A stretch of 64,000 nucleotides of DNA, from positions 675,501 to 739,500 of the forward strand of contig NZ_CP014596.1 in assembly GCF_001687105.1 (NCBI RefSeq), given 5' to 3'. The notes beneath the pieces were generated by a model. The model was not told the DNA's origin and ran no database searches. It was given only the letters and a program-made list of their open reading frames with translations. A program made the position numbers and the translations under genes. Position 1 is the stretch's first letter; each line of letters opens with the position of its first letter. The stretch is from Salipiger sp. CCB-MM3. Its GTDB lineage: Bacteria; Pseudomonadota; Alphaproteobacteria; Rhodobacterales; Rhodobacteraceae. Below are positions 42,012 through 45,743 of this stretch, piece after piece.

Positions 42012-43037
42012 TCAGCCGCCGCAGATGCCCTGCAGGCGCACCCAGTCGGCGTCGCTGACCACTGGCGCGCTGCCTTCCTTGGCGCGCGGATCGGCCTCGA
42101 CCAGCCCCAGAACGCTCTCGCCGGTGATGTCCTGCGCATAGGCGTAGGGCGAGCTGCGCAGCTCGATCTTCGCGAAGCCGTCGAGCAGCACGTTTTGCGG
42201 CAGCGGGGCGTGCGGGCGGGTCAGCAGGTCTTCGGCGTAGCTTTCCAGCGCGCCTTCGGGCATCGAGCCGGTGGTTAGCAGGCGCAGGCTCGGCCAGAGC
42301 CCGGCGTGACCCAGCAATTCACCCAGCGGATCGGTCTGCTTGGCGCGCAGCGACTCGGCGAGGATATAGCCCGCCGCCACGTCCGGGTCCTCATAGTCTT
42401 CGAGCAGACTGCCAGAGACGAGGATCAGCCCGCCGGGCAGATGCGCCGTGTCGCGCACACCGTCGCGCAGCACCACCAGATCGTTGCGGCGGGCATCTCC
42501 CAGCACGCGTGCGGCCAGATGGCGCAGCGGGCGCGCCGCCTCGGCGCTGGTGCAGGGGCGGCCCGAGACGCGGGCGATCTGCGTCAGCAGCGCCTGACCG
42601 ATCTCGACCCGCTTGGCGCGGGGCACCACGCGTTCGGCATGGTTGAGCAAAGCGCCGGGCAGCCACAGCAGCGCACCGGCCAGCACCAGAACCGCCACGC
42701 CGCCGATCAACCGCAGCCGCAGCTTGCCGGGTTTCGGGCGGCGCCGTTCGATGTCACGCAGCACCCGGTCGATGGCGTCAATCATCGTCGCCTCGTCCTC
42801 GGCCAGCTCCAGCGTCTCGCCGGGATCGCCATCGGGGTGGTAGAGCGCCGGAGAGCGGCCCTTGTTGGCGCGCACCACAGCGGCCATCGACCAATGCGAC
42901 AGCGCCCGCCCGGAGATATCCGACACGGTCAGCGTGGCATCGCCCATCGACAGGATCACCTCGCGCCGCTGAGCCTCTGGCTCGGGCCGCCAAAGCGCGG
43001 TGGCTTCGAGGCGTTGATACTCCTTGAGGGCGGTCAT
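42012..43037 (-). CDS. Membrane-anchored protein resembling a degenerate M48 peptidase
   Basis: This 341-residue protein has a cytoplasmic N-terminal part (1-105), one membrane helix (about 109-127) and an exported domain. Residues 200-214 (LPGGLILVSGSLLED) look like the M48 strand-helix that precedes the catalytic helix, but where HExxH is expected the sequence reads AGYILAESLRAK (222-233), so zinc and catalysis should be lost. Two Cys (162 and near the C-terminus) may pair. Function unknown; a pseudoprotease role is an inference from this local resemblance only. Confidence 0.65.
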   Translation of the reverse strand: MTALKEYQRLEATALWRPEPEAQRREVILSMGDATLTVSDISGRALSHWSMAAVVRANKGRSPALYHPDGDPGETLELAEDEATMIDAIDRVLRDIERRRPKPGKLRLRLIGGVAVLVLAGALLWLPGALLNHAERVVPRAKRVEIGQALLTQIARVSGRPCTSAEAARPLRHLAARVLGDARRNDLVVLRDGVRDTAHLPGGLILVSGSLLEDYEDPDVAAGYILAESLRAKQTDPLGELLGHAGLWPSLRLLTTGSMPEGALESYAEDLLTRPHAPLPQNVLLDGFAKIELRSSPYAYAQDITGESVLGLVEADPRAKEGSAPVVSDADWVRLQGICGG

Positions 43038-43197: not shown

Positions 43198-43280
43198 GCG
43201 CGGCCACGGTGGCGAAAAAGACGCGCTGTGAGGGGCGCTTGCGAATGGTCCTGCGCGGCGGGCGGCGCTAGGGTCGGGGC

Positions 43281-43928
43281 ATGATCATCTCGCGTGGCCG
43301 TGGCTATATTTTCGTGCATATCCCCAAGACCGGGGGCACCTCTCTGGCGCGGGCGCTGGAGGCGCGGGCGCATCGCGACGATATCCTGATCGGCGACACG
43401 CCGAAGGCGCAGAAACGCCGCGGGCGGCTGCGCGGGCTGGTGGCGCGCGGGCGGCTCTGGAAGCATTCCACGCTGGCCGATATCGACGGCATCGTGACCC
43501 CGGAAGAGATCGCCCAGATGCGGCGCGTTGCGCTGGTGCGCAATCCGTGGGACCGGATGGTGAGCTATTATCACTGGCTGCAGACGCAGGCGTTCGCGCA
43601 TCCGGCGGTGGCGCTGGCGCAGGGCTTGGACTTCCCGGCGTTCCTGCTGCATCCGCAGACCAGCGCCAGCCTGCGCGGCTGGCCCAGCTCGCGCTATCTG
43701 CGCGACGCGGCGGGCACCGATCGCGGCGATATCTGGATACGGCTGGAGCATCTTGGCGAGGACCTCGCGCCCTTCGAGGCGCATCTGGGCTTCGCGCTCG
43801 ATCTGCCGTGGGACAATGCCTCGGACCGGCGGCGCGACTATCGCGGTTACTACTCGGATCAGCTGGCGCAGCATGTTGCGGAAAGCTGTGCCGAAGACAT
43901 CGCGCGCTTTGGCTATCGCTTCGACTGA
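43281..43928 (+). CDS. Sulfotransferase-family protein
   Basis: This 215-residue protein has the PAPS-binding P-loop HIPKTGGTSL (residues 13-22) and the 3'-phosphate motif RNPWDRMVSYYHW. It likely transfers sulfate from PAPS to a glycan or other surface molecule; the acceptor is unknown. It is monocistronic. Confidence 0.85.
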   Translation: MIISRGRGYIFVHIPKTGGTSLARALEARAHRDDILIGDTPKAQKRRGRLRGLVARGRLWKHSTLADIDGIVTPEEIAQMRRVALVRNPWDRMVSYYHWLQTQAFAHPAVALAQGLDFPAFLLHPQTSASLRGWPSSRYLRDAAGTDRGDIWIRLEHLGEDLAPFEAHLGFALDLPWDNASDRRRDYRGYYSDQLAQHVAESCAEDIARFGYRFD

Positions 43929-44009
43929 CGGGGACCAAGCGATGGAATTTCGGCCAATCCGCCGCCTTCGAGAAAAATAATGTCCATTAATGGGCAGGGG
44001 GCGGTTTTG

Positions 44010-44024
44010 TTAACCTTTTCTTAA
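44010..44024. promoter_or_regulatory. Perfect CtrA box (TTAA-N7-TTAA)
   Basis: The plus strand reads GTTAACCTTTTCTTAA, which on the minus strand is TTAA-GAAAAGG-TTAAC, the full CtrA consensus. It lies in a gap with no protein gene downstream on the plus strand, about 70 bp before the stem of the putative sRNA. TTAA is rare in this GC-rich DNA, so a chance full match is unlikely. Confidence 0.6.
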
Positions 44025-44042
44025 TTCCGGCAGGATTTGACT

Positions 44043-44054
44043 GGCCACGTGGCC
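44043..44054. promoter_or_regulatory. 12-bp palindrome GGCCACGTGGCC
   Basis: A perfect palindrome directly after a TTGACT hexamer (44037-44042) and 18 bp after the CtrA box. It could be an operator or the 5' hairpin of the putative sRNA. Confidence 0.35.
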
Positions 44055-44174
44055 CGGAGCGGAAGCATGTATGGGCCGCGCCAGAGGGTGGGTCTTACTG
44101 ACGGTCGTTTCCGTTTTCTGTATGCTGGCAAGCATTTGATCGCAGTATTCCCGGCCCGCCCTCTGGTTTTTTTT
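44050..44174 (+). ncRNA. Putative CtrA-linked small RNA with intrinsic terminator
   Basis: CCAGAGGGTGGG (44081-44092) pairs over 12 bp with CCCGCCCTCTGG (44155-44166) with one G-U pair and is followed by eight T residues (44167-44174). The 62-nt loop contains nested pairings TACTG/CAGTA and TGCT-GGCA-AGCA. No convincing protein is encoded, and the next plus-strand gene begins 800 bp away beyond a converging gene. The 5' end is a guess from the CtrA box position. An alternative is that this is only a distant 3' end of the sulfotransferase transcript. Confidence 0.45.
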
Positions 44175-44189
44175 GGCCCGCGTCCGGCT

Positions 44190-44831
44190 TTAGCGGATCG
44201 GGTCGAGCAAAGCGTCCTTCAGGCTGCAATCCTTAACGACATCGCGGCCGCAGGGCACGGGATCGAGGTCTTTTGACAGGCACAGCCGCGCTTCTTGGAT
44301 GCGCCCCGCTTGGCAGGTGATGGTCAGCATGTCGGGCTCCAGCCCCGGGTTGGCCTTCAGGAATGCCTCTTCGATCACCTGCGCGGGCAGGGTGACCGGA
44401 TCTTCCAGACGCCGCAGAACCTCGGGACGTTTGACCGCCTCATAAGCGCGGCGGGCGAGGGCGAAATACGCCTCGGCGGGCAGCCCGGCGCAGGACCCGT
44501 GCTTTTTCCACTGGTACCAAGCCAGACCGGGCGTGCCCATGATGTCGGCCATGGCAGCGGTCTCGGCGCGGCTCGGGGCGCGCACCGATGTGTCGCAATA
44601 AGAGGGGTAGCCGCGCTCGTATTGCGGCCAGAGCCCGTGCAGCACCCAGCCAAGCGCGCGGTCGCATTGCGGTGAGTTGCGCGCTTCGCCCTCGAGCGCG
44701 CACCACGTCGGCGACCAGCTCAGCGACAGCACGTAATAGTCGAAACGGCCCGCGCGTTCGCCATCCGCACGGGCGGGGCTGGCGGCTCCGGCGAGAACGG
44801 CACAGGCGAGCAGGATCAGCAGGGCACGCAT
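44190..44831 (-). CDS. RNase T2-family ribonuclease, secreted
   Basis: This 213-residue protein has a signal peptide (1-22). The CAS I motif WVLHGLWPQ is present with His65. The CAS II region reads WYQWKKHGSC with His111, but the His-Glu pair normally found just before (HEWxKHG) is Tyr-Gln here. Six to eight Cys suggest disulfides. It cleaves RNA in the periplasm or outside the cell; activity may be altered by the changed CAS II. The Shine-Dalgarno is AGAGGAAAGAG. Confidence 0.85.
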   Translation of the reverse strand: MRALLILLACAVLAGAASPARADGERAGRFDYYVLSLSWSPTWCALEGEARNSPQCDRALGWVLHGLWPQYERGYPSYCDTSVRAPSRAETAAMADIMGTPGLAWYQWKKHGSCAGLPAEAYFALARRAYEAVKRPEVLRRLEDPVTLPAQVIEEAFLKANPGLEPDMLTITCQAGRIQEARLCLSKDLDPVPCGRDVVKDCSLKDALLDPIR

Positions 44832-44972
44832 TTTCTCTTTCCTCTTGGGTTGCGCGCGACTATATAGGCCCGAAGTTCCCCGACAACGGAAACCCGTCCT
44901 GGAGAAGTAATCCGGGACCTCCCGAGGCCAACGCCTTGGGGGAGGGGAGAAGATTTACGTAGGAGATGACCC

Positions 44973-45743
44973 ATGGCAAAACTGCTGCATCCCAAGGCGA
45001 CCGCTGTCTGGCTCGTCGACAACACCACCCTGACTTTCAAGCAGATTGCCGATTTCACCGGCATGCACGAACTGGAAATCCAAGGCATCGCCGACGGTGA
45101 CGTGGCCGGCGGCGTGAAGGGCTTTGACCCGGTCGCCAACAACCAGATCGAGCAGATCGACATCGACAAAGCCGAGAAGAATCCGCTCGCCAAGCTGAAG
45201 CTGAAGTACAACCCCGCCGCTGTCGACGAAGACAAGCGCCGTGGCCCGCGCTACACCCCGCTGTCGAAGCGTCAGGACCGTCCGAACGCGATCCTGTGGC
45301 TGGTGAAGTTCCACCCCGAGCTGACCGACGGCCAGATCTCCAAGCTGGTGGGCACCACCAAGCCGACGATCCAGTCGATCCGCGAGCGCACTCACTGGAA
45401 CATCCAGAACATGCAGCCGATCGACCCGGTTGCTCTGGGTCTGTGCCGCCAGTCCGAGCTTGATGCCGCCGTTGCCAAGGCCGCGAAGAACCGCGACGAG
45501 GTGATGACCGACGACGAGCGCCGCAAGCTGGTGTCGACCGAGCAGAGCCTCGGCATGGACGCCGAGCCGCGCCTGCCCTCGGCGATCGAAGGTCTCGAGA
45601 CCTTCACGCTCTCCGATCCGCGCGGCGAGGACGACGAGGAAGAAGACAAGGGCCCGAGCGATTTCTCGGATGCCGACAGTTTCTTCAACCTGCCGTCGAA
45701 CGATGACGACGACGAGGATGACAGCGAGGACCCGCGCGGCTGA
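44973..45743 (+). CDS. trcR: DUF1013 cell-cycle transcriptional regulator TrcR
   Basis: This 256-residue protein is alphaproteobacteria-specific. The DUF1013 core (residues 1-175) contains two HTH-like segments, LTFKQIADFTGMHELEIQGI and LTDGQISKLVGTTKPTIQSI. The C-terminal 60 residues are highly acidic (DDEEEDKGP, DDDDEDDSED). The family member in Caulobacter is annotated as the cell-cycle regulator TrcR. The gene is monocistronic with a GGAGATG Shine-Dalgarno and a strong terminator, and it lies close to the CtrA box at 44010. Confidence 0.87.
   Translation: MAKLLHPKATAVWLVDNTTLTFKQIADFTGMHELEIQGIADGDVAGGVKGFDPVANNQIEQIDIDKAEKNPLAKLKLKYNPAAVDEDKRRGPRYTPLSKRQDRPNAILWLVKFHPELTDGQISKLVGTTKPTIQSIRERTHWNIQNMQPIDPVALGLCRQSELDAAVAKAAKNRDEVMTDDERRKLVSTEQSLGMDAEPRLPSAIEGLETFTLSDPRGEDDEEEDKGPSDFSDADSFFNLPSNDDDDEDDSEDPRG

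Follow-up and report, generated by a model that had tools for sequence, protein, structure and literature searches.

In Salipiger sp. CCB-MM3, the intergenic region that separates a sulfotransferase-like gene from the convergent gene for RNase T2 contains a conserved predicted CtrA box followed by a conserved, predicted two-hairpin RNA whose nearly invariant core exposes a 14-nt seed (Table 1; coordinates refer to the window, that is, the whole stretch of 64,000 nucleotides that was analyzed). CtrA is the master regulator of the alphaproteobacterial cell cycle and motility. The reading that we favor, with somewhat more confidence than doubt, is that this element encodes a CtrA-activated, trans-acting RNA of about 125 nt that represses the mRNA of an H-NS-like protein in a DsrA-like manner and perhaps feeds back on ctrA. 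Under this model, CtrA bound at the box would switch on an RNA that extends from approximately 44046-44051 to 44174, and the core of this RNA would cover the Shine-Dalgarno sequence and the start codon of the H-NS-like mRNA and block its translation. When CtrA is active, the level of the H-NS-like protein would then fall and the genes silenced by this protein would open; negative feedback may be added by a weaker pairing of the RNA around the start of ctrA.

Table 1. Features of the small RNA locus and its surroundings (window coordinates unless a genome or locus is named).
Feature	Position	Strand	Evidence or remark
Sulfotransferase-like gene	43281..43928	+	Upstream of the RNA element; Pfam PF03567, 6.2e-05
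CtrA box (predicted), TTAA-N7-TTAAC on the minus strand	44009..44024	.	TTAA-N7-TTAA at the aligned place in 7/7 carriers
Invariant GATTTGACT, probable core-promoter element	44034..44042	+	Identical in 7/7 carriers; role suggested by the position of the box
5' hairpin, 44049-44056 with 44072-44079	44049..44079	+	8 pairs, 96.4% of cells paired
Terminator-type stem, 44080-44094 with 44153-44167, around the conserved core	44080..44167	+	14 pairs, 99.0% of cells paired
Core GGTCGTTTCCGTTTTCTGTATGCTGGCAAGCATTTGATC, nearly invariant	44103..44141	+	Closed by 44103-44107/44137-44141
Seed GTTTCCGTTTTCTGT	44107..44121	+	Unpaired at 14 of its 15 positions in the fold; complement of the Shine-Dalgarno region of the H-NS-like gene
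Small hairpin ATGCT-GGCA-AGCAT inside the core	44122..44135	+	Invariant in 7/7 carriers
T-tract, end of the predicted RNA	44167..44174	+	Sequence
RNase T2 gene, convergent	44190..44831	-	Pfam PF00445, 1.3e-13; present in 20/20 genus genomes
trcR, neighbor without a shown link to the element	44973..45743	+	Pfam PF06242, 5.9e-62
Element B	L024-L031 and L033, downstream of RNase T2; G000:C1:913355-913380 (L052)

The initial annotation had proposed a CtrA-controlled small RNA at this place, a reading that is supported as far as sequence can say, with the box present in all seven genomes that carry the element and the stems kept through changes. The layout of the locus is as described there: eight T residues close the element, the RNase T2 gene is convergent, and the claim of some 800 bp without a protein gene on this strand is borne out, the next plus-strand gene after the T-run being trcR, which starts at 44973. 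In six of the seven carriers, the element lies 3' of the sulfotransferase-like gene on the same strand, an arrangement compatible with another explanation, namely that it is only the 3' UTR or terminator of that gene, or else the terminator of the RNase T2 gene. This appears very unlikely. In the carrier G010, the sulfotransferase-like gene is reduced to a 7-codon remnant, MIISGFG-stop, in which its start and end are fused (L007 1318-1341), and despite this loss the box, GATTTGACT, both hairpins and the core (with one base different) are all retained, so that the element is not merely a terminator of the upstream gene and the 3' UTR reading was rejected. Read on the strand of RNase T2, the hairpin lacks a following U-tract, and a nearly invariant 39-nt core would be needless for a terminator. 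By its own promoter-type site and its terminator-type end, the element qualifies as a putative intergenic small RNA gene that is independent of its neighbors. Of the features relevant to binding by Hfq or ProQ, it shows the U-tract. The end is atypical: unlike a classic terminator, the stem encloses a loop of nearly 60 nt, and a simple terminator scan, which allows only loops of 3-8 bases, does not list it. Farther upstream in the window, the minus strand encodes a 341-residue protein (42012-43037) with no Pfam or NCBIfam match at E 0.001; a similar reading frame occupies the corresponding position in L003 and in L005.

The box is a perfect TTAA-N7-TTAA (TTAACCTTTTCTTAA, 44010-44024), as had been stated, and the final C of the consensus is indeed on the minus strand, which reads TTAAGAAAAGGTTAAC over 44009-44024. 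Within the 64 kb, this pattern is unique to the box and does not occur in 100 shuffles; across the 5.5 Mb genome, TTAA-N7-TTAAC has 20 matches (16 distinct places), this box among them, versus 7 for the reversed-pattern control. The box, whose lack of conservation would have spoken against the initial proposal, is conserved in 7/7 carriers, and the box of G009 has the exact Rhodobacter form, TTAAC-N5-GTTAAC, the Rhodobacter-type CtrA consensus quoted in PMC7232146. The CtrA gene itself scores above the family cut-off in six of the seven carriers; the exception is G009, where the gene is broken in two and the best piece reaches 326.6 bits. The proteins beside 11 of the 16 distinct places were scanned (9 with NCBIfam and 10 with Pfam, in overlapping sets), and the sites were found to adjoin genes for a CckA-like kinase, LexA and CsgF (L065, L056 and L066), standing before the cckA-like and lexA genes, with no family match for several other neighbors. 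The sites beside cckA-like, lexA and csgF are likely to be part of the CtrA regulon of this genome, and the conserved full site at its promoter makes the RNA element a putative member of the same regulon.

In Caulobacter, activating CtrA sites lie near -35, and sites over the -10 region repress, as summarized in PMC6180460. By analogy with the activating sites, transcription of the RNA would start near 44046-44051, a placement deduced from the box. The opposite polarity, in which the box would shut the promoter while CtrA is active so that the RNA would be made at low CtrA, is compatible with the repressing sites over -10 in the account of PMC6180460, given that the distance between the box and the start is itself deduced. 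We consider this arrangement improbable, since the box precedes the deduced start by 22-42 bases, where activating sites lie (near -35, according to the same summary), and since a simple sigma-70 scan of 43200-45000 on the strand of the element finds no site, as expected for an activator-dependent promoter.

The RNA is predicted to be structured. The fold of 44040-44180 has a z of -4.59, with none of 200 shuffles as stable, and in the alignment of the seven sequences 98.7% of the 237 pair cells form standard pairs, a level reached by none of 500 shuffles; control structures that were slid along the alignment pair in only 34.6-43.1% of the cells. The 12-bp stem described initially, 44081-44092 with 44155-44166, exists, one of its pairs being G-U, and is lengthened in the consensus to the terminator-type stem of Table 1. 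The palindrome reported in front of this stem fared differently: GGCCACGTGGCC is present at 44043-44054 but is not conserved as a palindrome among the aligned relatives, in which the stretch is the 5' arm of the longer 5' hairpin. Compensatory changes, which the initial annotation had suggested looking for, are present: 6 of the 34 pairs are changed on both sides with the pair kept, again a value that none of 500 shuffles reaches. Three of these are among the 8 pairs of the 5' hairpin, all in the sequence of the window; two are among the 14 pairs of the terminator stem, one in the window and one in G011; and one is in a 2-pair helix. Every both-side change affects one cell only: five occur in the window, whose sequence is the most divergent, and the sixth occurs in G011. 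The change events are thus few and mostly in one lineage, which makes the structure argument slightly weaker. A search of Rfam (4227 families) yields no match at the gathering score in the window and none at E up to 10 in 43929-44200.

A BLASTN search of 101 genomes and a covariance model run against 20 genus genomes identify the same seven carriers with one match each, namely, G000 (the genome of the window), G005, G009, G010, G011, G014 and G015, which include Alloyangia mangrovi, two strains of A. pacifica and Salipiger mangrovisoli. The covariance search in relatives, a kind of check that had been proposed, finds the element in 7 of the 20 genus genomes; the other 13 have the RNase T2 gene and no match to the RNA. 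Among 394 family genomes, the core with up to 3 mismatches is found in the window's own genome only, and the covariance model, which was run there with stricter filters that may miss weak kin, returns the own match and three weak ones (E 0.001, 0.045 and 0.084). The best of the weak matches is at a contig end, near a gene that by eye appears to encode histidinol-phosphate aminotransferase, and given that position and that E is per genome, all three are read as chance matches. An exact scan of the genome contigs for the core detects 4 loci, none of them on a contig outside the seven carriers. The RNA appears to be limited to one group of related species, and because the carriers are close relatives, shared ancestry accounts for part of the conservation.

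Across the seven genomes, the core differs only by an A-to-G change near its start in the window and one G-to-T in G010. In 6/7 carriers it is spanned by an ATG...TGA frame of 12 codons, so that the RNA might encode the peptide MIVSVFCMLASI, which is identical in five relatives and differs by one residue in G010, either as its sole product or as part of a dual-function RNA. There is little to recommend such a peptide, which we consider highly improbable: in the window, the start codon is replaced by ACG, with no alternative ATG, GTG or TTG in frame shortly before it, and third codon positions of the core hardly change even though RNase T2 identity in the six other carriers is only 81-84%. The coding interpretation was rejected on these two grounds. 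With the core nearly unchanged at any codon position next to a diverged RNase T2, the constraint looks like one of nucleotide pairing.

The core is complementary to the Shine-Dalgarno sequence and the start codon of a gene at a separate locus (G000:C1:919870-920178), whose 103-residue product contains the C-terminal domain of H-NS (PF00816, 2.9e-17) and presumably has Rhodobacter HvrA as its named relative. This predicted complementarity is a new element of the present analysis. In G011, the pairing is unbroken over 21 bases, from -19 to +2 of the H-NS-like gene; in the window's genome, it comprises 17 bases, one mismatch and then 3 more, with the A-to-G mismatch giving a G-U pair. The small hairpin inside the core also pairs, with the 5' UTR of the mRNA, in the predicted duplex.

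A search of the seven carrier genomes for the complement of a 13-base seed with at most one mismatch yields 31 matches compared with 40 for the reversed control, that is, no general excess. The RNA gene itself accounts for seven of the 31; the 24 non-self matches consist of 5 at the H-NS-like start site, 2 in one repA-like leader and 17 each in a different place. The genome of the window has only two non-self matches, one of which is the H-NS-like start site, and in G009 and G015 the site is present with one more change, so that it exists in all seven carriers. A search for sequences complementary to the 3' half of the core gives 13 matches in the seven genomes; 7 fall on the RNA gene, and the remaining 6 all differ from one another in sequence.

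The energies of the H-NS-like duplex range from -29.6 to -44.3 kcal/mol in the seven carriers, and in six of these the duplex is stronger than any obtained with 500 shuffles of the core or with 500 shuffles of the target; the weakest carrier, G010 (-29.6), fails to beat the shuffles (best -29.8 and -32.7). For comparison, 74 sets of orthologous start regions, anchored on the aligned start, were taken in all seven genomes from three 20-kb neighborhoods, the remaining sets being dropped from the energy table by a length filter; the neighborhoods were deliberately those of H-NS, the RNA and ctrA, which makes this a comparison set rather than a random sample. The H-NS-like start region is the first of the 74, with a mean of -38.1, the other 73 having a mean of -21.7 and a standard deviation of 3.0. 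This rank is sensitive to the choice of the start codon: with the H-NS starts placed too far upstream in some genomes (75 sets), ctrA comes first, at -31.6 versus -31.1. In the H-NS-like set, the best Watson-Crick run drops no lower than 10 in any of the seven genomes, and the corresponding minimum is at most 6 in every other set. When G-U pairs are counted freely, other sites have equal or longer runs and the lead is lost. From -80 to +312 of the H-NS-like gene, 3 of 380 windows of 13 nt are invariant, namely, AGAAAACGGAGAC, which is the block complementary to the RNA, and two overlapping ones at codons 5-9. Against the consensus core, the 13 non-carriers give -16.2 to -29.8, with G006 the nearest, compared with -30.9 to -44.2 for the carriers in the same run. 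Over 464 kb sampled from the window's own genome, the H-NS-like site is first narrowly, both as a duplex (-42.0 versus -41.6) and as a single helix (-30.7 versus -30.0 for the next site), and with so narrow a lead the energy in one genome is not decisive. Four H-NS paralogs that were checked give -32.3, -26.9, -18.1 and -25.5, each weaker than the main H-NS site of its own genome.

The covariation of the RNA does not extend to its proposed target: no paired change joins the two, as the core change of the window and the G/T/A position of the target stay mismatched. A Shine-Dalgarno sequence is conserved anyway, and the better conservation of the core compared with this site hints at more targets. 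We infer that the core would pair with the H-NS-like mRNA and block its translation. The 5' UTR of the H-NS-like gene (G000:C1:919790-919900, L116) can by itself fold CUCCG onto the Shine-Dalgarno CGGAG, if weakly (z 0.48 in the window's genome); the CTCC and GGAG are invariant in the seven carriers, as are, at the nucleotide level, most of codons 5-9.

The second of the 74 start regions is that of ctrA (mean -31.6), with -28.7 to -33.6 in 7/7 carriers versus -23.5 in the single non-carrier compared. The pairing covers the Shine-Dalgarno sequence and the start codon of ctrA but is interrupted by mismatches and bulges. In G005 and G014 (L097 and L101), the seed has a further pairing site shortly before the start codon of a gene identified by eye as RepA/ParA-like, and the pairing with this repA-like leader reaches -34.5 and -38.0 kcal/mol in the two carriers. 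These pairings, together with a core more conserved than the H-NS-like site, lend some weight to a different view of a real CtrA-controlled small RNA, in which the RNA would act mainly on ctrA or on several mRNAs, with the H-NS-like match as one of many or a by-product of a Shine-Dalgarno-like sequence, and would be a feedback arm of the CtrA circuit, like CcnA in Caulobacter. We regard this as rather unlikely, although the strongest of the competing explanations: the ctrA pairing is broken and its Watson-Crick run is outside the six best sets listed, ctrA entered the comparison because it was already a favored candidate, and the H-NS-like site is stronger both in mean energy and in run length. 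The initial annotation had also pointed to the nearby trcR as another cell-cycle regulator. The proximity is real, but no further link was found, and trcR was rejected as a target because the pairing energies of its start region, -22.8 to -27.7 kcal/mol, are near background; the trcR energies and the contexts of the seed matches fit the model of repression at the H-NS-like start site.

A distinct element, denoted element B, consists of GGTACAGGCGGGGACGCCGATGACCG in a hairpin that is followed by a terminator-like stem in many loci. Allowing up to 3 mismatches, it is present in 28 of 61 genomes with 1-3 copies each (the reversed pattern has 0), and in 16/16 loci checked a TTAA half site ends 19-26 nt upstream. 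In 8 of the 13 non-carriers, element B occupies the slot of the RNA on the opposite strand, and in one more it is partly masked. The element B loci searched gave no Rfam match worth the name. Element B looks like a second, wider small-RNA family that is perhaps also CtrA-linked.

In the open-licence literature, the titles and abstract beginnings that were searched contain no CtrA-controlled small RNA in Rhodobacteraceae, no small RNA acting on an H-NS-like gene in this family, and no link between CtrA, a small RNA and H-NS. If the preferred model of an RNA that represses the H-NS-like mRNA is true, this would be a direct small-RNA link from CtrA to an H-NS-type gene silencer, and a short, testable seed and target are defined. 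A more tentative proposal, which we consider possible rather than probable, is a full lineage-specific circuit in which phosphorylated CtrA would induce the RNA, the H-NS-like protein would be silenced at its start site, and ctrA would be damped as well; if true, it would tie the cell-cycle and motility regulator to the relief of silencing at foreign or surface genes in a marine lineage of Rhodobacteraceae.

In E. coli, DsrA represses the translation of hns by pairing at the start region. The present system is alike in that the predicted pairing of a small RNA with the start region of an H-NS-family mRNA would reduce translation of that mRNA; it is unlike in that no Rfam family matches here and in the CtrA box at the promoter. 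The closest parallel on the side of CtrA is CcnA of Caulobacter, a 182-nt RNA encoded at the replication origin whose CCCC loop acts on ctrA and gcrA, as summarized in PMC8959179. CcnA shares with the element described here a non-coding nature, a CtrA box at the promoter and an action at the ribosome-binding site of mRNAs, those of the cell cycle in the case of CcnA and only predicted in ours; the present RNA differs in its length of about 125 nt, its position between the sulfotransferase-like and RNase T2 genes and its UUUCCGUUUUCUGU seed, and a search for the features of CcnA found no CCCC in the core or the seed and a locus between those two genes. IhtA of Chlamydia (PMC8343073), as outlined there, is similarly a small RNA that regulates a small basic DNA-binding protein, in an unrelated bacterium and with an unrelated target. 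EcpR1 of Sinorhizobium (PMC4414408) is likewise an alphaproteobacterial trans-acting RNA that modulates the cell cycle, unlike the present one in being stress-induced, according to its title, and in that its summary relates it neither to a CtrA box nor to H-NS. No kinship to DsrA or CcnA was seen; if the model is right, the likeness to the DsrA-hns pair would be one of convergence.
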